Source: Claveliimonas monacensis (GTDB lineage Bacteria > Bacillota > Clostridia > Lachnospirales > Lachnospiraceae). From it: a DNA stretch of 64,000 nt. The position numbers and the translations under genes were made by a program. The notes under the pieces were generated by a model. The model saw nothing but the letters and a program-made list of their open reading frames with translations. It was not told the DNA's origin and ran no database searches. Position 1 is the stretch's first letter, and each line of letters starts with the position of its first letter. The stretch covers positions 1 through 64,000 of the forward strand of contig NZ_JADCKL010000009.1 in the NCBI RefSeq assembly GCF_014982975.1, read 5' to 3'. Positions 5,441-14,949 of this stretch are shown in pieces.

Positions 5441-7039
5441 ATGGCAGAAATGGAAAACAGCAAAGACCTGATAAGTGTGTTATGGAATGGTGCGGATATT
5501 CTCCGATCTAAAATGGATGCGAATGAATATAAAGATTATTTGTTGGGGATCGTTTTCTATAAATACCTGTCAGATTCCTTTTTGATTAGAGTATATGATC
5601 TGCTGAATGATGATAAGCCGGAAAATCTGAAAGATGCTCTGGAAGCGTATAAGGAAGCGCTTGCAGATGAAAGTGCTGAGGAATTAAAGGAGCAGATAAA
5701 ATTAGAGTGTCATTATGTAATTGAGCCGGAACTTACATATACTTTTTTTGCAGAGATGGCAAAAAATAATTCTTTTAATCGTGAGCAGTTACAAAAGGCT
5801 TTTAATAATATAGAACAAAGTGATCCCTTATTTGCAGATCTGTTTACTGATATTGATCTGTATTCTAACCGTCTGGGAGCGGGAGATCAGAAGCAGAGTG
5901 ACACAATTTCAAGTTTGATTAAGGAAATTGACAAAGCGGATTTATTGAACACAGATGCGGATGTGCTGGGAAACGCTTATGAATATCTGATTGGACAATT
6001 TGCTTCTGAAACGGGGAAAAAGGCTGGAGAATTTTATACACCGCAGGCTGTGTCAAAAATCTTGACAAGAATTGCAATCGCCGGGCAGGAGAAAAGGAGA
6101 GGATTGTCTGTATATGATCCCTGTATGGGTTCTGGCTCTCTTCTGCTGAATGCTAAAAAATATGCTTCAGAACCAGAGTATATCAGATACTACGGGCAGG
6201 AACTGATGACATCCACTTATAATCTGGCAAGAATGAATATGTTCCTGCACGGGATTACTCCGGAGAATCAGAAACTCCGCAATGGCGATACGTTGGATGA
6301 AGACTGGCCGACCGGAGAGGAGACAGATTTTAACATGGTGCTTATGAATCCACCGTACTCTGCAAAATGGAGTGCGGCAGCAGGCTTTCTGCAGGATGAA
6401 AGATTCAGCGACTATGGAGTGTTGGCGCCTAAGTCAAAAGCGGATTATGCATTTTTATTGCATGGACTGTATCATTTAAAGAGTAATGGAACTATGGCAA
6501 TTGTATTGCCTCATGGAGTCCTTTTCCGCGGAGCGGCAGAAGGGAAAATACGAGAAAAACTGCTTCGGTCAGGTAATATCTATGCGGTCATAGGACTGCC
6601 GGCGAATTTATTTTATAATACATCGATTCCTACATGTATCATTGTGTTAAAGAAGCATAGAGACGGAAGAGATGTACTGTTTATAGACGCCTCGAAGAAG
6701 TTTGAAAAAGGTAAAAGACAAAATGCGATGACAGATGAGCACATAGATGCCGTTATTGACCTCTATAAGAATAGAGAGACTGTAGACAAAGAATCTTTTC
6801 TTGCCAGTTTTGAAGATATTGAAAAGAATGATTTTAATCTCAATATACCGCGATATGTTGATAATTTCGAGAAGGAAGAAGAAGTTGATCTAAACGCACT
6901 TTTAACGGATATGAGAAAGACGGATGAAGAACTTGAAAATGTACATCAGGATTTTGTGTCACTTCTCAAAGAATTAACTTCATCGGATGAAAACATCATG
7001 GCATCGTTAAATGACTTGATTGGAAGGATCGAGAGGTAA
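5441..7039 (+). CDS. hsdM: Type I restriction-modification methyltransferase subunit HsdM
   Basis: HsdM transfers a methyl group from SAM to N6 of adenine in the site chosen by HsdS, as an M2S enzyme, and is also part of the R2M2S restriction complex. The N-terminal HsdM domain spans about residues 10-150. The SAM site DPCMGSGS is at about 226-233, after GEFYTPQAVS (196-205), and the catalytic NPPY is at about 303-306. The length of 532 residues is normal. The C-terminal helical region (EEEVDLNALLTDMRKTDEEL) would contact HsdS. GGAGG precedes ATG 5441. The stop is six bases before hsdS, so M and S are co-translated from one operon. The gene looks intact. Confidence 0.95.
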   Translation: MAEMENSKDLISVLWNGADILRSKMDANEYKDYLLGIVFYKYLSDSFLIRVYDLLNDDKPENLKDALEAYKEALADESAEELKEQIKLECHYVIEPELTYTFFAEMAKNNSFNREQLQKAFNNIEQSDPLFADLFTDIDLYSNRLGAGDQKQSDTISSLIKEIDKADLLNTDADVLGNAYEYLIGQFASETGKKAGEFYTPQAVSKILTRIAIAGQEKRRGLSVYDPCMGSGSLLLNAKKYASEPEYIRYYGQELMTSTYNLARMNMFLHGITPENQKLRNGDTLDEDWPTGEETDFNMVLMNPPYSAKWSAAAGFLQDERFSDYGVLAPKSKADYAFLLHGLYHLKSNGTMAIVLPHGVLFRGAAEGKIREKLLRSGNIYAVIGLPANLFYNTSIPTCIIVLKKHRDGRDVLFIDASKKFEKGKRQNAMTDEHIDAVIDLYKNRETVDKESFLASFEDIEKNDFNLNIPRYVDNFEKEEEVDLNALLTDMRKTDEELENVHQDFVSLLKELTSSDENIMASLNDLIGRIER

Positions 7040-7045
7040 ACAAAT

Positions 7046-8263
7046 ATGGGAAAACCAGAGATCAGATTTAAAGGGTTTACAGATGATTGGGAACAGCGTA
7101 AGTTGGGAGAGGTGATTGAGGATTATGTAGAAAAAACTACAGTGGAAAATCAGTATCCAGTTCTAACATCTTCTCAGCAGATGGGAATTGTTTTACAAGA
7201 TGACTATTTTTCGGGAGATAGAGTGAGCCAATCTGGAAATATTGGATACTTTGTGATCCCAAGAGGATACTTTGCATATCGTAGCAGAAGTGACAACGAT
7301 GTTTTTGTATTTAATAGGAATGACTGCATAGATAAAGGAAGTATTAGCTATTTTTATCCAGTATTTAAACCAAGTGGAGTTGATTCCGACTTTCTTTTGA
7401 GACGATTAAATTATGGATTAGAAACACAATTGAAAATCGCTTCAGAAGGAACAGGTCAACATGTTTTGTCGTTGAAGAAATTTAAAAATATGACAGCTCT
7501 TTTTCCTAGTATTAATGAGCAGAGGAAAATCGGGGAATATTTTACACGTTTAGACCACCTTATCACCCTTCACCAGCGAAAGTGTGATGAAGTAAAAACA
7601 TTGAAAAAATATATGCTTCAAAAAATGTTTCCTCAAAATGGGATAAATGTTCCAGAAATAAGATTTTCTGGTTTTACTGACGTTTGGGAACAGCGTAAGT
7701 TGGGGGAAATGGGCTCAACTTTTACGGGACTTTCTGGAAAAACAAAGGAAGACTTTGGACATGGGGATGCGAAATTCATAACATATATGAATGTGTTTTC
7801 TAATCCCATAGCTGATTTGCAAATGACAGAAACAGTTGAAATTGACTCAAAACAGAATTGTGTTAAAGCTGGAGACGTGTTCTTTACTACCTCGTCTGAA
7901 ACACCAGAAGAAGTAGGAATGTCGTGTGTAATGCCTGAAAATGCTGATAATACCTACCTTAATAGCTTCTGTTTTGGATACAGACCGACTGAGAAATTTG
8001 ATTTGAATTATCTTGCGTATGTGCTTCGTTCTGAGTCATTCAGAAAAGAAATGACATTCTTAGCACAAGGAATATCGAGGTATAACATTTCTAAAAACAA
8101 GGTAATGGAAGTTGAAATTCCAGTACCATCATTGGAGGAACAAAGCAAGGTTGGACGGTATTTTTCCAACCTCGACAACCTTATCACCCTTCACCAACGG
8201 AAGTGTAATGAATTAAGAAAAATGAAGAAATTTATGCTTCAGAATATGTTCCCTAAAGATTGA
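7046..8263 (+). CDS. hsdS: Type I restriction-modification specificity subunit HsdS
   Basis: HsdS holds two target recognition domains (TRDs) separated by helical spacers and sets the bipartite DNA site. Both halves open with a nearly identical boundary, WEQRKLGE (residues 15-22 and about 214-221), and both close with LITLHQRKC followed by a conserved helix and FMLQ/YMLQ..MFP. TRD1 spans about 22-165 and TRD2 about 222-370. The two halves are circularly alike, as usual for this family (405 residues, full length). The DNA for the boundaries is repeated (7088, 7685 and 7553, 8174) and recurs in the spare cassette at 10336 and 10825. This is the layout of a shuffling hsdS. Confidence 0.93.
   Translation: MGKPEIRFKGFTDDWEQRKLGEVIEDYVEKTTVENQYPVLTSSQQMGIVLQDDYFSGDRVSQSGNIGYFVIPRGYFAYRSRSDNDVFVFNRNDCIDKGSISYFYPVFKPSGVDSDFLLRRLNYGLETQLKIASEGTGQHVLSLKKFKNMTALFPSINEQRKIGEYFTRLDHLITLHQRKCDEVKTLKKYMLQKMFPQNGINVPEIRFSGFTDVWEQRKLGEMGSTFTGLSGKTKEDFGHGDAKFITYMNVFSNPIADLQMTETVEIDSKQNCVKAGDVFFTTSSETPEEVGMSCVMPENADNTYLNSFCFGYRPTEKFDLNYLAYVLRSESFRKEMTFLAQGISRYNISKNKVMEVEIPVPSLEEQSKVGRYFSNLDNLITLHQRKCNELRKMKKFMLQNMFPKD
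7088..7110 (+). repeat. hsdS TRD-boundary repeat R1, copy a
   Basis: Codes for WEQRKLGE; core GAACAGCGTAAGTTGGG. Direct copies at 7685 and 10336. Confidence 0.85.
7553..7590 (+). repeat. hsdS spacer repeat R2, copy a
   Basis: Codes for DHLITLHQRKCDE; the core TTATCACCCTTCACCA recurs at 8174 and, with one change, at 10825. Confidence 0.8.
7685..7707 (+). repeat. hsdS TRD-boundary repeat R1, copy b
   Basis: Opens TRD2; same orientation as copies a and c. Confidence 0.85.
8174..8211 (+). repeat. hsdS spacer repeat R2, copy b
   Basis: Closes TRD2 of hsdS. Confidence 0.8.
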
Positions 8264-8337: not shown

Positions 8338-8376
8338 GATAAGCCTTAAAACCATTTCAAGTAAATGGGGCTTATC
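8338..8376 (+). promoter_or_regulatory. Bulged hairpin just before the DUF3791 gene
   Basis: Outer arms GATAAGCC / GGCTTATC and inner arms CCATTT / AAATGG, with a 5' bulge TTAAAA and loop CAAGT. It ends three bases before GAGGAGG of the 8392 gene. With no T-run it is not a normal terminator; a 5' leader structure controlling translation is more likely. Confidence 0.5.
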
Positions 8377-8391
8377 AAGAGGAGGTTTTGA

Positions 8392-8610
8392 ATGAGCGAA
8401 CAAAAGAAAAAGATTGGTTTTACGGTTGCTTGTGTAAATGAATTTGCCCGGAAATATAATCTGAGTGTGCAGGAAGCATTCCGATATCTTTTCCACTTTA
8501 AAGGGATTGACTTTATTAAAGAAAACTATGATGTGGAACATACATTGGATTTTGAAACTATATTGGAAGATTTGGGAATGATGTGCCGTAGAAATGGAGG
8601 TATGCTATGA
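8392..8610 (+). CDS. DUF3791-like small protein (putative TA partner A1)
   Basis: A 72-residue helical protein: KIGFTVACVNEFARKYNLSV, QEAFRYLFHFKGIDFIKENY, DVEHTLDFETILEDLGMM. The pattern of a helix, an 'NLS-EAF/Y' turn and a 'GIDFIKENYDVEHT' segment matches my memory of DUF3791 proteins. These small proteins often stand beside DUF3990 genes. AGGAGG precedes ATG 8392. The stop overlaps the next start as ATGA, so it is coupled to the DUF3990 gene. By position and size it could be the antitoxin, but that is inference. It lies inside the hsd locus, between hsdS and the spare TRD. Confidence 0.6.
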   Translation: MSEQKKKIGFTVACVNEFARKYNLSVQEAFRYLFHFKGIDFIKENYDVEHTLDFETILEDLGMMCRRNGGML

Positions 8611-9110
8611 GATTATATCATGGAAGCAATATAGTAATAGATAGTATTAATTTAGCGATGTGCAGGCCATATAAGGATTTTGGACAGGGGTTTTATTTGA
8701 CAGATATCGAAGAACAGGCAGAAAAGATGGCTACAAGAGTATCTAAAATTTACGGCGGATTTCCAGTTGTGAATATTTATGAAATAGATGACGATTTTAG
8801 AGAATTATCGGATTTAAGAATAAAAGATTTTGGTGCACATACAACGGAAGAATGGGCAAAATTTATAATGAATAATCGGAACAGAACATTTACAGATGAA
8901 AAAAGTCTTCTGTGCAATAGAGATAATAAATACGATATCGTAATAGGTCCTGTTGCTGATGATAATATGGCATTATTATTCCGACAATATGAAAATGAAA
9001 TCATTGATTTTTCCACACTGCTGAAAGGAATGATATATAGAAAAACATCTTCGCAATATTCTTTTCATACAGAAAAAAGTATTAAACTTTTACGGAAGGT
9101 GGTCGATTAA
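8607..9110 (+). CDS. DUF3990-like ADP-ribosyltransferase-fold protein (putative toxin A)
   Basis: A 167-residue protein opening MRLYHGSN, then KDFGQGFYLTDIEEQAEKMA, DIVIGPVADDN and QYSFHTEKSIKLL. These four blocks are the hallmark of DUF3990, which I recall as part of the ADP-ribosyltransferase fold clan. By analogy the His of YHGS, the Tyr of GFYLT and the Glu of HTEK would be the NAD-binding and catalytic H-Y-E set. There is no signal peptide, so it acts inside the cell. It lies between two small partner genes (8392, 9112) with four-base overlap and one-base gap. The substrate is unknown. A sister copy is at 9379. Confidence 0.7.
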   Translation: MRLYHGSNIVIDSINLAMCRPYKDFGQGFYLTDIEEQAEKMATRVSKIYGGFPVVNIYEIDDDFRELSDLRIKDFGAHTTEEWAKFIMNNRNRTFTDEKSLLCNRDNKYDIVIGPVADDNMALLFRQYENEIIDFSTLLKGMIYRKTSSQYSFHTEKSIKLLRKVVD

Positions 9111-9111
9111 A

Positions 9112-9342
9112 ATGAATGAGCAGAAACAGTTAATTGAATATATGATACAGGATGTAGTTGATATGCTTGCGACGGATCAGAATATAGAATACGACGAGGC
9201 AATGAATAAATTTTATAATTCGGAAGTTTTTGAAAAGCTTCAGGATGAAGAAACCGGACTATATCTGGAAAGCTCGGGATATGTATATGATCTTTTTAAG
9301 GATGAGCTGAATTTTGGACATATTATTCAAGCAGAGATATAG
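9112..9342 (+). CDS. Small partner of DUF3990 (A2), 76 aa
   Basis: A small acidic helical protein: QLIEYMIQDVVDMLATDQNI, EYDEAMNKFYNSEVFEKLQD, then ETGLYLESSGYVYDLFKDEL. It shares its layout with the 9855 product: a helix ending VVxM, an EAM/EAL helix, a 'S-F/H-E-x-L-x-x-E-E-x-G' stretch, and a C-terminal 'xxYxYDLF/AEAIFEIW' segment. It starts one base after the DUF3990 stop. Each DUF3990 gene here is followed by one such partner, which suggests that this is the real antitoxin or a regulator. I have no family name for it. Confidence 0.55.
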   Translation: MNEQKQLIEYMIQDVVDMLATDQNIEYDEAMNKFYNSEVFEKLQDEETGLYLESSGYVYDLFKDELNFGHIIQAEI

Positions 9343-9378
9343 ATTATAACCGTTCAGAGCGATATATGGAGGAAATTT

Positions 9379-9858
9379 ATGATTTTATATCATGGTAGCA
9401 ATGTGGAAGTAAAAAACCCGAAAATTATCCAGTCAAAAAGATTGTTGGATTTTGGGACAGGTTTTTACCTTACAAGTGATTATGAGCAGGCGAAGAAATG
9501 GGCGATTCGCACTACTGCCAGGCGGGAAAAAGGAGTTCCTATTATATCCGTATTCAGTTTTGATGAAAGTGAATTTGAAAAACTTGATGTACTAATTTTT
9601 GATGCAGCAAATAAAGAGTGGCTTAGATATGTAGCTGCACATAGAACTGATAAATCCATAAAAGATACATACGATATAGTTGCCGGGCCAGTGGCAAATG
9701 ACCAGGCAATCCGTACTGTAAATAATTATCTGAAAGGTTATTTTACAGAAGACATTGCGATACAATTATTACTTCCACAAAAATTAAAAGATCAGTATGT
9801 TTTTAAAACAGAAAAAGCACTTTCGATCCTGAAATTTAATGAGGTGAAATTCATATGA
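9379..9858 (+). CDS. DUF3990-like ADP-ribosyltransferase-fold protein (putative toxin B)
   Basis: A second DUF3990 protein, 159 residues, with the same blocks: MILYHGSN, LLDFGTGFYLTSDYEQAKKW, DIVAGPVANDQ and QYVFKTEKALSIL. Outside the blocks it differs much from copy A, so the pair is not a recent duplication. It keeps the presumed H-Y-E residues. GGAGG precedes ATG 9379. The stop overlaps the start of 9855 as ATGA. The gene order here (toxin-like, small partner, DUF3791-like) differs from cassette A, where the DUF3791-like gene comes first. Confidence 0.7.
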   Translation: MILYHGSNVEVKNPKIIQSKRLLDFGTGFYLTSDYEQAKKWAIRTTARREKGVPIISVFSFDESEFEKLDVLIFDAANKEWLRYVAAHRTDKSIKDTYDIVAGPVANDQAIRTVNNYLKGYFTEDIAIQLLLPQKLKDQYVFKTEKALSILKFNEVKFI

Positions 9859-10100
9859 GAAGATTGGAACCTGAAATTATAGATTATTATAACAATGAAG
9901 TGGTTATGATGATAGCTGACAAATATGGATTGAGTCAAATGGAAGCTTTGAAAGCATTTGTATGCTCAAAAACACACGAAATGCTTGAAAATGAGGAGTG
10001 TGGAATGACTGAATTTGGTGCGGAAGCGATCTTTGAAATATGGGAGTGTGAAAAGGTTACAGGCGATCCTAGAAATTCTGTGTATATAAGGGAGGAATAG
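9855..10100 (+). CDS. Small partner of DUF3990 (B1), 81 aa
   Basis: It is coupled to the DUF3990 gene by ATGA. The protein is helical and acidic: EIIDYYNNEVVMMIADKYGL, SQMEALKAFVCSKTHEMLEN, EECGMTEFGAEAIFEIWECE. The 'YGLSQMEALKAF' segment resembles the 'YNLSVQEAFRYL' segment of the DUF3791-like protein at 8392, so the two partner types may be distant relatives. It lacks any enzyme motif. An antitoxin role is the simplest guess. Confidence 0.55.
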   Translation: MRRLEPEIIDYYNNEVVMMIADKYGLSQMEALKAFVCSKTHEMLENEECGMTEFGAEAIFEIWECEKVTGDPRNSVYIREE

Positions 10101-10101
10101 T

Positions 10102-10311
10102 ATGACAGAGGAAATGAAATTCTTTATGTACTTATTGGAATATTATTCCGCATACAAAAACAAAAAAACAGGAGATGTGCTTAAGGAGTGGGAAAAAGGC
10201 GGAATTATTAAAAAAATATATGATAATTATTGGGTCTATCATACTGAACGAATTGAAAACGCCTATATGGACATTGATAGTTTAATGAAAACAGGGAAAA
10301 GTGCATGGTAA
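10102..10311 (+). CDS. DUF3791-like small protein (putative TA partner B2)
   Basis: A 69-residue protein: MTEEMKFFMYLLEYYSAYKN, KKTGDVLKEWEKGGIIKKIY, DNYWVYHTERIENAYMDIDS. The 'YHTE...A-x-x-DID' end fits DUF3791. It starts one base after the preceding stop and ends just before the R1 repeat (10336) of the spare hsdS half. The whole run 8392-10311 is therefore packed between recombination repeats. Confidence 0.55.
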   Translation: MTEEMKFFMYLLEYYSAYKNKKTGDVLKEWEKGGIIKKIYDNYWVYHTERIENAYMDIDSLMKTGKSAW

Positions 10312-10335
10312 TATCGACATAAAAAAACGGTTGCT

Positions 10336-10358
10336 TGGGAACAGCGTAAGTTGGGAGA
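10336..10358 (+). repeat. hsdS TRD-boundary repeat R1, copy c
   Basis: Homology to copies a and b begins sharply at TTGGGAACAGCG, right where the spare TRD begins. Direct orientation. Confidence 0.85.
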
Positions 10359-10932
10359 TATGTACGGGGCAATCGGAAATGCGTTCGTAGGAACTGCTAC
10401 GCCATACTATGTAGAGCATGGACATTTTTATCTGGAATCTAATAATGTAAAAGATGGGCAGATAAATCATAACTCGGAGATTTTCATAAATGATGAGTTT
10501 TACGAGAAACAAAAAGACAAGTGGTTGCATACTGGAGATATTGTAATGGTTCAATCTGGACATGTTGGACATGCTGCTGTAATCCCAGAAGAATTGGACA
10601 ATATAGCGGCTCATGCTTTAATTATGTTCAGAAATCCAAAAGAGAAATTTGAACCATATTTTTTGAATTATGAATATCAGACTGATACTTCAAAAAAGAA
10701 AATAGAGAACATTGCAACGGGTAATACAATAAGACATATTCTTGCATCTGATATGCAGGAATTTATTGTTGATGTTCCGACGTATACAGAGCAAAAAAGA
10801 ATTGCAAATTATTTTCAGAGACTTGACCACCTCATCACCCTTCACCAGTGTAAGTGTTTTCATATCCAAAATGTCTTAAAGTTCATAAGAGTTAAAATCA
10901 TAACAGTAGAAAAGGAGAAAAGCGATGCCTGA
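10351..10932 (+). pseudogene. Spare (headless) HsdS half carrying one TRD
   Basis: The frame begins inside the R1 repeat: reading back it gives AWEQRKLGDM, then a TRD (YGAIGNAFVGTATPYYVEHG, GDIVMVQSGHVGHAAVIPEE) and the closing R2 motif RLDHLITLHQCKC. It lacks the N-terminal HsdS leader (EIRFKGFTDDW), and the TTG at 10351 has no ribosome binding site. It is therefore probably silent until recombined onto hsdS at 7088 or 7685. It differs from both TRDs of hsdS. After R2 the sequence degenerates (HIQNVLKFIRVKIIT instead of the usual MLQxMFP), and the stop overlaps hsdR by eight bases. I read it as a donor cassette for specificity switching. Confidence 0.75.
10825..10855 (+). repeat. hsdS spacer repeat R2, copy c
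   Basis: GACCACCTCATCACCCTTCA, close to copies a and b, closes the spare TRD. Confidence 0.75.
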
Positions 10933-13903
10933 ATTAGAGTCAATGATAGAAAAGAAACTGATTGAGCAGTTGAAATATGGTGAATCTCAGTGGACTTACC
11001 GGCCAGATCTGAAAACAGAAGCGGATTTGTGGGCGAATTTCAGGTATATCCTTGAGCAGAATAATAAGGAGCGTCTGAATGGACAGGCGCTATCCGATGC
11101 AGAGTTTGAGCAGGTAAAAAACCAGCTTCAGTTTTCTTCATTCTATAAGGCGGGAGAATGGCTGGTGGGTGAAAATGGGAAAGTGCAGGTTCATGTACAG
11201 CGGGATACAGATCGCCTGCATCTTGCAGTGATAAATCATGAGCATATCGCAGGCGGCAGCAGCGTCTATGAGGTGATCAATCAGTACAGTGCATTGAGAA
11301 CGGAAGAAGATGATAAAATTCCAACCCGGGACAGAAGATTTGATGTAACTTTGATGATTAACGGACTACCATTGATCCATATTGAGTTGAAAAATAAACA
11401 GCACTCATATATGGAAGGATTCCGGCAGATAAAGAAATATATCGGGGAAGGAAAATTTACCGGAATTTTTTCCGCGGTGCAGATGTTTGTAGTGAGCAAT
11501 GGTGTAAATACAAAATATTTCTCGGCAGCAGGTGATACGGAGCTCAATGAAAAGTTTATCAGTGGCTGGGTAGATAAGGATAATAATCCTGTGACCGATT
11601 ATATTGATTTTGCCAAAAGTGTACTTCGCATACCGGAGGCACATGAGATGATTGCCAGATATACAGTATTAGACAAGGAAGCCAGGAGGTTAATCCTGCT
11701 TCGTCCATATCAGATCCATGCCATTGAGGCAATACGGGAAGCGTCTAAGACAGGCAGGTCGGGATTTGTGTGGCACACAACGGGATCGGGAAAAACACTG
11801 ACATCCTATAAGGCGACAAGAAATCTATTGATGGATATTCCATCAATAGATAAAACAGTGTTTCTCATTGACCGGAAGGATCTGGATGCGCAGACAACGA
11901 TGGCATTTCAGGCCTATGCCAATAATGATCTGATTGATGTTGAGGAGACTGATAATGTAGATGACTTAAAGAGAAAACTGAAAGCGGACGACAGGCGGGT
12001 TATTGTCACAACAATCCAGAAGATGCAGAGACTGATCTCCAGAAGGCTGCGGGAAGGGACTTCGGAATATACTAAAATTAAGAATTTAAAGCTTGCTTTC
12101 GTAGTAGACGAGTGCCACAGGGCAGTTTCCCCCGGGACTAAGAGAGAATTGGAAAGATTTTTTGGAAATTCTTTATGGTATGGTTTTACAGGAACGCCGA
12201 GATTTTCAGAGAATCCGTATCCGCAGATGGGCGATCTGCCCCGGACAACTGAAGAATTATATGGAAAGTGTTTGCATAAATACACGATTCAAAATGCCAT
12301 TCATGATAACGCTGTACTGGGGTTCCAGGTGGAGCATAACGGACCTAAACACATTTCTGACGAGACGGATCGCAGCGTATATGAGACAGAGTCGCATATG
12401 CTGCAGGTTTTGGATGTTATTTTGAACAAGTCATATCACAAGCTGGGATTTCAGAATGGAAAAGGACAGACCTATGAAGGACTGCTTACTACAAGTTCCA
12501 TCCCAATGGCCCAGAAATATTATGAGCTTCTGGAAAAGGTGAAGAATGGGGAAACTTCCTTGAAAATTGACGAGAAGATCAGACAGGTACTTCCGGATTT
12601 CCCGAAGTTTGCCATTACATATTCGGTCACGGAGAATGAGGACGGCTCTCAGGTAAATCAGCAGAAAATGCAGCATGCATTAGATATGTACAATAAGATG
12701 TTTGATACAAAATATGACCTGGGTCAGATACAGGCTTATAATGGCAACCTTAATAAAAGACTTGCAAGAAAAGACGACAAGTTTAAGAGGAGAAAAGAGC
12801 AGTTGGACCTTGTGATCGTTGTAGACCGTCTGCTGACAGGTTTTGATGCTCCCTGTATGTCTGTTATATTTATCGACAGGCAGCCTATGGGCCCCCACGA
12901 TCTGATTCAGGCATTTTCACGAACGAACCGGATCTATGATAAGAATAAAATGTACGGACAGATTGTTACATTCCAGGCTCCGAAGATGTTTAAAAAATGT
13001 GTGGATGATGCAGTGAAACTCTACTCTGCAGGAGGTACAAATAGCGCTATCCTGGCAGAATGGGATGAAATCGAGTCCGCATTTAAAAAAGCACTGGCAG
13101 CTCTCCGGGTATCTGCAGAGACTCCATCTGAAGTACCGAGAATGTCTATGAAAGAGAAAAAGGTGTTTGCGAAAATTTTTCAGAGCTTTGACAGACTGTT
13201 TGCGCAGCTTAGATCCTTTTCGCAGTATGAGGACAGTATGCTGGAGGAATATGGGATTACGGAGAAAGAATATGAGGATTATGCCGGACATTATCAGAAT
13301 GTAATGGAGGAAATCAAAATAGAGAAGGAAGGATCTGAAGACGAAGGAGGTGAGACGTCAGAGGCTGATCCAGAGTATGAGCTGATGGCATACAGTAATA
13401 CCAAAATCGATTATGAGTATATTATTAATCTGATACAGAATATTGTGACGCCAGATGAGGATGCTGATGCTCTTACTCCGGAAGAGCGTCAGAAGCAGAT
13501 TGATGAGGTTAGGCAGTACGTTGAGGAACTCAGAAAGGAGAATCCAAAGATTGCGGATATTATGTCCGGTTTAATAAGTGAGATTGAGGCGGACGAGGAG
13601 AAATACAGAGGACAGTCTATTCTGAATATTGTAGAAAATATGAAGAATGAATGTATTGATAAGGTGATTTCTGATTTTTGTATTACATGGTATGCTTCTA
13701 AAGATGATGTAATGTATGCGGCGATGCATTACAGAAATGGGGAGATACCGAATGCGAGTGTGATAAAATCTACGATTGATTATACAACCTACAAAACGAT
13801 AAGCGAAAAACCGCTGCCCAAGTTTAAATATTATGCCCAATGTATGGCAGATTTAAAGAAAACATTGGATGAAGAAGTCAAGCCATTGATCAGCCATTCG
13901 TAA
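10925..13903 (+). CDS. hsdR: Type I restriction endonuclease subunit HsdR
   Basis: HsdR is the ATP-driven DNA translocase and nuclease of the R2M2S complex. The N-terminal PD-(D/E)xK nuclease shows Asp140 (FDVTLM) and Glu154-x-Lys156 (IHIELKNK). Superfamily 2 helicase motifs follow: LRPYQIHAI, Walker A HTTGSGKT (about 284-291), DECH (about 395-398), GFTGTP, LLTGFDAP and QAFSRTNR. The C-terminal part (about 700-992) is helical and charged and should bind the methyltransferase core. The length of 992 residues is normal for the type IC-like group. ATG 10925 follows AAAGGAG. It lies downstream of the spare TRD, so TRD exchange would not disrupt it. Confidence 0.95.
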   Translation: MPELESMIEKKLIEQLKYGESQWTYRPDLKTEADLWANFRYILEQNNKERLNGQALSDAEFEQVKNQLQFSSFYKAGEWLVGENGKVQVHVQRDTDRLHLAVINHEHIAGGSSVYEVINQYSALRTEEDDKIPTRDRRFDVTLMINGLPLIHIELKNKQHSYMEGFRQIKKYIGEGKFTGIFSAVQMFVVSNGVNTKYFSAAGDTELNEKFISGWVDKDNNPVTDYIDFAKSVLRIPEAHEMIARYTVLDKEARRLILLRPYQIHAIEAIREASKTGRSGFVWHTTGSGKTLTSYKATRNLLMDIPSIDKTVFLIDRKDLDAQTTMAFQAYANNDLIDVEETDNVDDLKRKLKADDRRVIVTTIQKMQRLISRRLREGTSEYTKIKNLKLAFVVDECHRAVSPGTKRELERFFGNSLWYGFTGTPRFSENPYPQMGDLPRTTEELYGKCLHKYTIQNAIHDNAVLGFQVEHNGPKHISDETDRSVYETESHMLQVLDVILNKSYHKLGFQNGKGQTYEGLLTTSSIPMAQKYYELLEKVKNGETSLKIDEKIRQVLPDFPKFAITYSVTENEDGSQVNQQKMQHALDMYNKMFDTKYDLGQIQAYNGNLNKRLARKDDKFKRRKEQLDLVIVVDRLLTGFDAPCMSVIFIDRQPMGPHDLIQAFSRTNRIYDKNKMYGQIVTFQAPKMFKKCVDDAVKLYSAGGTNSAILAEWDEIESAFKKALAALRVSAETPSEVPRMSMKEKKVFAKIFQSFDRLFAQLRSFSQYEDSMLEEYGITEKEYEDYAGHYQNVMEEIKIEKEGSEDEGGETSEADPEYELMAYSNTKIDYEYIINLIQNIVTPDEDADALTPEERQKQIDEVRQYVEELRKENPKIADIMSGLISEIEADEEKYRGQSILNIVENMKNECIDKVISDFCITWYASKDDVMYAAMHYRNGEIPNASVIKSTIDYTTYKTISEKPLPKFKYYAQCMADLKKTLDEEVKPLISHS

Positions 13904-13943
13904 TACGGATATTAAAAGAGCATCAGAGTCTGAAGCATTATAT

Positions 13944-13954
13944 CAGCGTAAGTT
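13944..13954 (+). repeat. Partial R1 core upstream of the recombinase
   Basis: CAGCGTAAGTT, identical to the core of R1, followed by ATTTCGGGA in place of GGGA. It lies 30 bases before the recombinase start and could be a fourth crossover site or a scar. Confidence 0.5.
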
Positions 13955-13983
13955 ATTTCGGGAAAGGAAGGTAGCGGGAGCTT

Positions 13984-14910
13984 ATGCAAAGTGATATGAA
14001 TAAGACACAGCTCTTTTATGAGTATTATAAACAATGGGTAGACGTATATAAAAAAGGTGCGATCAGAGAGGCTACGATGGCAAAATATCTAATGACTCAG
14101 AAGTGGGTAGAAACACTTGCACCAGATCTGTTAATATCAGATCTTACGAGAACAGCATATCAGCAGCTTCTCAATGACTATGCCCTAAATCATGAAAGGC
14201 AGACTACGCTGGACTTTCATCACCAGCTTAAGGGGGCTATACTCGATGCTGTTGATGAAGGATTGATTGAAAGAGATCCTACACGTAAGGCGATCATAAA
14301 AGGGAAACCTCCGGGAGTTAAGAAAATAAAGTATCTGAATCAGTTTGAATTACATACCTTGATAGCCAGTCTGAATCTTAAAGAGAAACCGAACTGGGAC
14401 TGGTTTATTCTACTGGTGGCAAAGACCGGTATGCGATTTTCGGAGGCGTTGGCAATTACTCCGGGAGATTTTGATTTTGCGAGGCAGACTTTATCTATTA
14501 GTAAGACATGGGACTATAAAGGTGAGGGGGGATTTCTGCCTACCAAGAATAAATCTTCAGTCCGAAAAATTCAGATTGACTGGCAGATCGTTGTTAAATT
14601 TGCGGAGCTGACCAAAGGAATGCCGGAAGACAGACCGATTTTTGCCGGGAAAGCGAAGATTTATAATTCTACAGCTAATGATGTGCTTACAAGACGCTGC
14701 AGGGAATGTGGAATATCAGAAATTTCCATCCATGGACTCCGGCATACGCATGCATCACTTTTGCTGTTTGCAGGAGTATCTATTGCGAGTGTTGCCCGAA
14801 GATTAGGACATGCAAGCATGACGACAACACAGAAAACATACCTGCATATTATACGAGAACTCGAAAATAAAGATGTTGATCTGGTAATGAGAACGCTGTC
14901 AGGCTTATAA
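13984..14910 (+). CDS. Tyrosine recombinase associated with the hsd locus
   Basis: A 308-residue phage-integrase-type protein with an N-terminal SAM-like core-binding domain (about 15-95) and a C-terminal catalytic domain. The catalytic set is visible: Arg in KTGMRFSEAL, His-x-x-Arg in IHGLRHTHAS, His/Trp-box RRLGHAS, and Tyr in TQKTYLHI near residue 289. The protein resembles XerC/D-like enzymes and the recombinases found at shuffling hsdS loci. It follows hsdR in the same direction without a terminator between. By context it probably acts on the R1 repeats. It could instead be a remnant integrase of an island. Confidence 0.85.
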   Translation: MQSDMNKTQLFYEYYKQWVDVYKKGAIREATMAKYLMTQKWVETLAPDLLISDLTRTAYQQLLNDYALNHERQTTLDFHHQLKGAILDAVDEGLIERDPTRKAIIKGKPPGVKKIKYLNQFELHTLIASLNLKEKPNWDWFILLVAKTGMRFSEALAITPGDFDFARQTLSISKTWDYKGEGGFLPTKNKSSVRKIQIDWQIVVKFAELTKGMPEDRPIFAGKAKIYNSTANDVLTRRCRECGISEISIHGLRHTHASLLLFAGVSIASVARRLGHASMTTTQKTYLHIIRELENKDVDLVMRTLSGL

Positions 14911-14949
14911 AAGGATAGTGGTAGGAAAATTTACGCTGATATGGATGAG

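Follow-up and report, generated by a model that had tools for sequence, protein, structure and literature searches.

Toxins of the ADP-ribosyltransferase (ART) type are found in several systems that share features with two three-gene cassettes lying in tandem in a type I restriction (hsd) locus of Claveliimonas monacensis. The cassettes occupy positions 8392-10311 of the window, the 64,000-nucleotide stretch of DNA analysed here, with which contig C36 of a 3.0-Mb genome (G000) begins. Each encodes a DUF3990 protein, the candidate toxin, and two small partners, a DUF3791 protein and a protein here called P. Loci are numbered with L and genomes with G, and published work is cited throughout from excerpts of the papers named. 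In enteropathogenic Escherichia coli (EPEC), the ART toxin-antitoxin pair DarTG2 occupies the corresponding slot in a type I locus, on an island that protects against phages (PMC12255303). However, DarT and DUF3990 are separate ART families, DarG has a macrodomain and the DarTG2 island has its own repressor, RptR; no macrodomain or NADAR antitoxin was found among the six window proteins. DarT1-NADAR and YarT-YbiA (PMC11543638, PMC11125620) combine an ART toxin with a NADAR neighbour, as do some relatives of the present module, whereas the window's genome is without NADAR and no enzyme domain was found in the window's partners. CmdTAC (PMC11618068) also consists of three genes, an ART toxin with two partners, but its partners CmdA and CmdC serve as antitoxin and chaperone, while the window's partners are paralogues of each other. 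The toxin gene prrC is likewise linked to a type I locus (PMC2610378). It differs in encoding a tRNase that is silenced by the restriction-modification enzyme, whereas DUF3990 modules mostly have no hsd genes nearby.

By their profile matches, the cassettes belong to a kind already catalogued, the PADLOC candidate phage defence PDC-M13. PDC-M13 models are the best matches for all six proteins (E 9e-35 to 2e-69), and adjacent genes within each cassette match the A, B and C models in order (04435/04438/04444 and 04436/04440/04446), though the gene orders of the two cassettes differ; both orders occur among the models. The PADLOC-DB 2.0 entry gives no mechanism, and the window is distinct in holding two modules of different clades in tandem. 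The source of the PDC candidates is a preprint by Payne et al. (2024), as cited in PMC13356809 and PMC12988326. Most PDCs are without experimental validation according to PMC12988326, and PDC-M13 is abundant, with 3324 occurrences in one rumen survey (PMC13356809). Two further candidates, neither present in the window, are related. M10A and M42A of PDC-M10 and PDC-M42 are DUF3990 proteins, and the M10B partner is a DUF3791-P fusion; in contrast to PDC-M13, M42A is longer and is paired with M42B (with a helix-turn-helix (HTH) in one long form scanned), and some loci add NADAR. A full-text literature search found no mention of PDC-M42 or PDC-M10, and a PHROGs comparison matched just families of unknown function. 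A reading of the DNA made earlier from its letters and open reading frames (ORFs), here the sequence-only reading, had described the cassettes as having no known function. Nameless they are not, but the excerpts of literature naming DUF3990, DUF3791 or PDC-M13 yielded no mechanism for them.

The same reading had placed six small, tightly packed genes inside a type I locus and had assigned them to DUF3990 and DUF3791. The ORFs are where it put them, with hsdM, hsdS, a half hsdS and hsdR around them, and Pfam agrees with both family names. The cassette features, all on the plus strand, are as follows.

8392-8610, plus strand: cassette 1 gene 1, DUF3791 small protein, putative antitoxin subunit (PF12668 4.8e-25; PDC-M13A PDLC04435 4.2e-42)
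8607-9110, plus strand: cassette 1 gene 2, DUF3990 protein, putative ART-type toxin (PF13151 2.1e-48; PDC-M13B PDLC04438 1.2e-57)
9112-9342, plus strand: cassette 1 gene 3, DUF3791-paralogous partner P, putative antitoxin subunit (PDC-M13C PDLC04444 1.1e-43; paralogy)
8372-9349, plus strand: span of cassette 1 as an exchangeable unit of DNA (blastn matches to L163, L165, L166, L168 and L172 start at 8372-8431 and end at 9341-9349)
9379-9858, plus strand: cassette 2 gene 1, DUF3990 protein, putative ART-type toxin (PF13151 3.4e-52; PDC-M13A PDLC04436 2.2e-69)
9855-10100, plus strand: cassette 2 gene 2, partner P, putative antitoxin subunit (PDC-M13B PDLC04440 7e-35)
10102-10311, plus strand: cassette 2 gene 3, DUF3791 small protein, putative antitoxin subunit (PF12668 8.1e-10; PDC-M13C PDLC04446 8.9e-35)
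9369-10312, plus strand: span of cassette 2 as an exchangeable unit of DNA (blastn matches to L035-L038 start at 9369-9379 and end at 10310-10312)

All six frames are intact and preceded by sequences that by eye resemble ribosome binding sites (RBS). The genes are spaced by two 4-nt overlaps and two 1-nt gaps, and the cassettes lie 36 nt apart. They are AT-rich, with a GC content of 0.33-0.34 against 0.485 for the window.

The cassettes are best explained, with a probability of roughly 70%, as independent toxin-antitoxin modules, each consisting of an ART-type toxin and a split antitoxin, which would be opportunistic residents of type I loci. The ART-type toxin-antitoxin module suggested by the sequence-only reading is supported. 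The evidence comes from sequence comparison and comprises the modules and their boundaries, the triad of DUF3990, the paralogy and fusions of the partners, the hsd slot, persistence without hsdR and the decay of toxins whose partner is kept. Under this explanation, two complete and separately acquired PDC-M13 modules would occupy the slot behind hsdS. DUF3990 would be a cytoplasmic ADP-ribosyltransferase toxin with an H-Y-Q site, presumably acting through NAD chemistry, and DUF3791 and P would jointly keep it inactive, the simplest arrangement being a heterodimer that binds the toxin. Once the supply or the stability of the antitoxin fails, as may happen during phage take-over, the freed DUF3990 would modify some target in the cell, most probably a base in nucleic acid, and halt growth. 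The outcome would be abortive protection behind restriction.

The site of the candidate toxin was derived from 86 distinct proteins of the family sample (L130-L219), chosen by Pfam profile. H5 and Y30 are present in 86/86 and Q139 in 84/86, whereas E145, the E of TEKAL, is present in 33/86. Across all 183 distinct DUF3990 proteins, H5 is found in 177, Y30 in 182, Q139 in 181 and E145 in 90. A separate, motif-picked set was chosen by motifs holding Y30, D24 and the YDIVxG segment, and those columns are not independent there. The H-Y-E site that had been proposed from the two window proteins is rejected, as the E of TEKAL is poorly conserved. Of the motifs said to be shared by both proteins, TEKAL is present in the second but reads TEKSI in the first. 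Since Q139 is kept and E145 is not, the third residue of the site is the Q before the last strand, giving a conserved H-Y-Q triad. By analogy with the PARP motifs, Q139 is taken to be the third catalytic residue. The H-Y-[EDQ] clade of ADP-ribosyltransferases is marked by H, Y and one of E, D or Q, conserved at motifs 1, 2 and 3 respectively, and DUF3990 has all three. The clade permits Q as third residue, and the ART clan in Pfam includes DUF3990 (PMC7955679). Among 63 aligned DUF3990 members, ART-PolyVal is matched by 34 at E up to 1 (best 3.3e-5) and PARP by 4 (best 0.061); the window's own two proteins fall under the ART-PolyVal cut-off. DUF3990 is also the C-terminal domain of Rhs5, a Serratia type VI secretion system protein (PMC4524185), and of Enterobacter RhsA (PMC10763514).

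A third DUF3990 gene of the window's genome (L002:1480-1932; G000:C1) has C in place of Y30 and a full-length fused partner of 156 aa (PDC-M10B). No hsd genes were seen by eye within the 3.4 kb examined at that locus. At L157:9936-10838, DUF3990 is fused to a Fic domain (Pfam Fic 5.3e-13), so that one protein holds two toxin-type domains; its DUF3990 part is matched just to position 118 of 152. A viral search with a DUF3791-DUF3990 fusion as query gave no match.

The small partner encoded at 9112 and 9855 had been regarded as a separate kind of protein. The two P proteins of the window have no Pfam match up to E 1, but comparison of the P and DUF3791 profiles aligns 57 columns with a score of 26.7; the best of 100 column shuffles scores 15.7 and the reversed profile 9.9. 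In addition, Pfam DUF3791 is matched by 10/58 P proteins at E up to 1 (best 2.3e-7), with no other family matched by more than 3. By these comparisons P is a remote paralogue of DUF3791. No enzyme domain was found in the P or DUF3791 partners, and a likeness of DUF3791 to IF2_N was dropped, being seen in just 2/52 members.

The three components also occur as fusions. P and DUF3791 are joined in L066, L075 and L107, and at 15 loci there is a partner of 147-159 aa whose N-terminal half fits DUF3791 and whose C-terminal half fits P (PADLOC M10B for L002 and L025). DUF3791 is fused to DUF3990 in L167, L170, L171 and L177, as Pfam confirms on L167. For the 183 distinct DUF3990 genes, the commonest orders are DUF3990>P>DUF3791 (71), DUF3791>DUF3990>P (31) and DUF3990>(DUF3791-P) (25). 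Rarer ones include (P-DUF3791)>DUF3990 (3), (DUF3791-DUF3990)>P (3) and DUF3990 alone as judged by the DUF3791 and P models (36). As in type II toxin-antitoxin systems, the candidate toxin is nearly always beside a partner in a tight operon. A recognised partner adjoins 170 of the 183 genes (DUF3791 and P at 139, one of them at 8, M42B at 23); four of the remaining genes lie at contig or locus ends and nine have no partner found.

M42B is the partner of a sister clade, where it follows long DUF3990 proteins (PDC-M42A, scanned in L137 and L206; M42B, scanned in L199 and L205). A C-terminal extension is present in 14/22 aligned M42B proteins, and in L199, the sole one scanned, it holds a Cro/C1 HTH (HTH_26 9.4e-7). 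All 5 M42B proteins encoded directly beside hsd genes (L040, L137, L205, L206 and L214) are among the 8 short forms; the form in L194, where an hsdR-like piece lies 1.3 kb away, is long. The alignment (A6) excludes L219, whose downstream gene is unrelated.

A NADAR gene lies behind M42B in L040, L137, L205 and L206 (Pfam 8e-48 for L205). It also lies about 310 bp behind the DUF3990 part of the DUF3791-DUF3990 fusion in L167, L170 and L171, a distance with room for P. NADAR neighbours thus occur in two DUF3990 lineages. Of 43 NADAR matches in 200 family genomes, 10 are within about 650 bp of a DUF3990 gene, where a rough density estimate gives an expectation of about 0.03. Eight of these pairs came from comparing match lists and two (L231 and L234, in which DUF3990 itself is broken) from inspecting the other 35 neighbourhoods; three of the ten are near-copies (G028, G035 and G104). 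It has been reported that NADARs strip ADP-ribose from guanine (PMC11543638, PMC11125620) and act as antitoxins (PMC11543638, PMC11125620, PMC11833690). A macrodomain as eraser was rejected: among the roughly 150 matches listed, just 2 were judged by eye to be close to a DUF3990 gene on the list, at distances of about 1.2 and 2.1 kb. These two are by eye SIR2-like ORFs with macrodomain matches (L165:7577-8449 and L204:5347-6231), and their proximity could be chance.

Five NADAR neighbourhoods are without a whole DUF3990 (L226, L229, L231, L233 and L234). The toxin gene is split in L234, has the first half with YHG and DFGxGFY replaced in L231, and is gone from L229 and L233; in L226 it is reduced to its first residues, which are in frame with M42B. 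The M42B partner is complete in L231, L233 and L234, almost complete in L226 and partial in L229. Loss of the toxin with retention of the antitoxin is the usual mark of toxin-antitoxin modules.

The genes around the cassettes, again on the plus strand, are as follows.

5441-7039, plus strand: hsdM, type I methylase subunit (TIGR00497 1.8e-108, above cut-off; N6_Mtase 1.7e-107)
7046-8263, plus strand: hsdS, specificity subunit with two target recognition domains (Methylase_S 3.9e-25; PADLOC Specificity_I 7e-114)
10324/10351-10932, plus strand: half hsdS, one target recognition domain, without an ATG start, TTG at 10351 possible (Methylase_S 2.6e-11; direct repeat 7079/7676/10327)
10925-13903, plus strand: hsdR, type I endonuclease subunit (PADLOC REase_I 2.7e-164)
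13984-14910, plus strand: tyrosine recombinase, a frequent companion of such hsd loci (PF00589 1.9e-19)

The two cassettes fall in different clades, with 31% identity. Cassette 2 is nearest to L035 and L036, both in hsd loci, and cassette 1 to L163 and L165, of which L163 retains just an hsdS tail. In blastn, DNA homology stops sharply at the cassette borders. The different clades and sharp borders together suggest two separate insertions. The relative of cassette 1 at L163:9568-12000 lies by the hsdS tail remnant and an apparent CRISPR array, called by eye from repeated peptides.

Two congeners carry the same slot. In G204 (L270) the locus is syntenic, with DNA identities of 98.1% for hsdM, 98.7% for cassette 1 and 99.3% for cassette 2, and with hsdS recognition domains that differ from the window's. 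Window positions 10313-14927, comprising the half hsdS, hsdR and the recombinase, are missing there; the junction is one nucleotide past the last stop codon of cassette 2, with about 3 nt shared. The missing part was probably lost rather than gained, because the relatives L036, L133 and L271 have it. L270 retains hsdM and hsdS, and a search of the rest of the G204 genome at E 1e-60 found no hsdR resembling the window's. As both cassettes are kept there, cassettes can persist without HsdR. In the cassette 1 DUF3990 of that locus (L270:9948-10451), the F before the catalytic Y (F in 63/63 aligned) reads G, and this copy may be weakened. The second congener, G203 (L271), has cassette 1 alone in the slot; its DUF3990 is broken by stop codons and its P is intact.

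The link to restriction was surveyed in 90 loci taken from the best 130 DUF3990 matches outside the window's own genome, starting at least 9 kb from the contig start, with about 20 lower-scoring listed matches set aside; 88 are distinct, as two pairs overlap. Up to 9 kb was examined on either side, many stretches being shortened on one side by contig ends, where farther hsd genes are missed. An hsd gene or hsdS remnant occurs in 10/88 loci (L132, L133, L137, L144, L148, L163, L194, L205, L206 and L214), against about 0.9 expected if each of 344 Methylase_S matches is a separate locus. In 7 of the ten, hsdS or an hsd remnant lies no more than 54 bp away. L163 joined the ten after a tblastn search for remnants, and L194 is weak, with a 158-aa hsdR-like piece on the other strand. 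In the motif-picked set, 7/80 loci have hsd genes, 4 directly abutting (L035, L036, L040 and L110). The order hsdM-hsdS-cassette-half hsdS-hsdR-recombinase recurs in L133 and L200 and, with one extra hsdS piece, in another family (L273). Relatives of the recombinase lie beyond hsdR in L040, L132 (other strand), L133, L200, L206 and L214; L035 also has one, without hsdR, and no such gene was called in L036. On a Moraxella plasmid the order is hsdM-DUF3990-P-DUF3791-hsdS, the genes overlapping by 4 nt; P is assigned there by position and annotated hypothetical. On a quick tree (72/180 inner branches under 80), the hsd-linked state changes at least 11 times, L163 being counted as not hsd-linked, and gene order tracks clades far better than shuffles do. 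The hsd link is recurrent, not obligatory. The recurrent placement expected by the sequence-only reading was therefore found, but its proposal that the cassettes are tied to restriction is not supported, with 78/88 loci showing no hsd gene within the stretch examined and L270 lacking hsdR.

Within the window's hsd genes, the WEQRKLG segment is repeated in both hsdS halves, and the similarity of the half hsdS begins there. The repeats, at 7079, 7676 and 10327, are direct, and the half hsdS is probably a silent specificity store. An invertible hsdS locus was rejected, as the inverted pairs number just 4 and are short (20-26 nt) and imperfect (72-80%). The second hsdS recognition domain (7684-8204) has 94.6% DNA identity to the domain preceding hsdR in another genus (L206:7172-7692), a sign of recent exchange. 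A promoter and terminator scan of the locus gave nothing above shuffles. A hairpin at 8338-8376, directly 5' of the cassette 1 RBS, is present in the centroid fold, but a special role was rejected, as the whole stretch (z -1.08) folds no better than shuffles.

The layout also bears on the strongest of the other explanations, that the cassettes are addiction elements whose main effect is to keep the locus stable (the hsd genes, the half hsdS and the cassettes themselves) rather than to fight phages. It is compatible with the toxin-antitoxin explanation, though unlikely as the main role. The cassettes lie between the direct repeats at 7676 and 10327, where recombination would delete them, and the gap in L270 starts just behind the last stop codon of cassette 2. 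Modules also occur on plasmids (77 records, 29 conjugative), and in pBF9343 the module is one small gene away from a zeta toxin gene. Yet most loci do not adjoin hsd genes, and a place in a defence operon and on phages fits defence equally. On pBF9343, a conjugative Bacteroides plasmid, the arrangement (L221:4555-6615) is a 149-aa DUF3791 protein, of fused-form length, then DUF3990, the small gene and the zeta toxin gene.

A guard of the PrrC type, in which the type I complex silences the toxin and a phage protein that disables restriction releases it, is improbable. The position of the cassettes between hsdS and hsdR recalls PrrC, whose linked type I enzyme keeps it silent and which an anti-restriction factor from a phage activates (PMC2610378). 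However, dependence on a linked type I enzyme is not what the survey found: besides the 78 loci and L270 (where hsdM and hsdS are still there), L205 and L163 keep a cassette beside hsd remnants only, and every cassette brings two partners of its own. It is more doubtful still that the cassettes are passive passengers, AT-rich genes stranded in an insertion hot spot and now functionless. Their low GC content and the broken toxins of some relatives would fit, but the six frames are intact, the triad residues are kept in 84 to 86 of 86 proteins, and the congener DNA identity of both cassettes is high. Least credible of all is a modifier of restriction, in which DUF3990 would ADP-ribosylate an Hsd subunit to tune restriction or specificity: co-location and frames coupled to hsd genes, as from hsdM through hsdS on the Moraxella plasmid, speak for it, but most loci lie elsewhere, Rhs proteins are tipped by the same domain, and the NADAR neighbours point to nucleic acid.

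Several observations weigh against independent toxin-antitoxin modules with an ART-type toxin. No PDB relative of DUF3990 was found, so the ART fold rests on weak profile matches and the Pfam clan, and in the excerpts of literature naming these families no growth, NAD, binding or phage tests were found. Four of the 9/183 DUF3990 genes with no partner found are in one clade (L201, L210, L213 and L216), and L190 and L192 keep H, Y and Q with no partner found, though their clade has partners. Unlike usual type II antitoxins, which are DNA-binding autorepressors, the 58 P and 52 DUF3791 proteins show no supported DNA-binding domain. With regard to decay, the start region of DUF3791 in L271 is also damaged (shifted), and NADAR is interrupted too in L233. 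The window's own genome has 0 NADAR matches.

A wider picture can be offered only tentatively and is rather less than an even bet. DUF3990 might be a large family of ADP-ribosyltransferase toxins that modify guanine-type bases, held by three interchangeable controls: the split DUF3791-paralogue antitoxin, an antitoxin with an HTH, and NADAR as eraser. Within type I loci, cassettes might accumulate step by step as exchangeable back-up immunity next to a silent store of specificities, and might outlive the restriction genes. The congener without hsdR is a natural control for whether the cassettes need restriction. The split antitoxin of two paralogues, the H-Y-Q triad, NADAR as a neighbour and, in the sister clade, an HTH partner together turn an anonymous candidate into a specific and cheaply testable one. 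The question raised for the family is whether nucleic acid is ADP-ribosylated by DUF3990, and whether DUF3791 and P together stop it.

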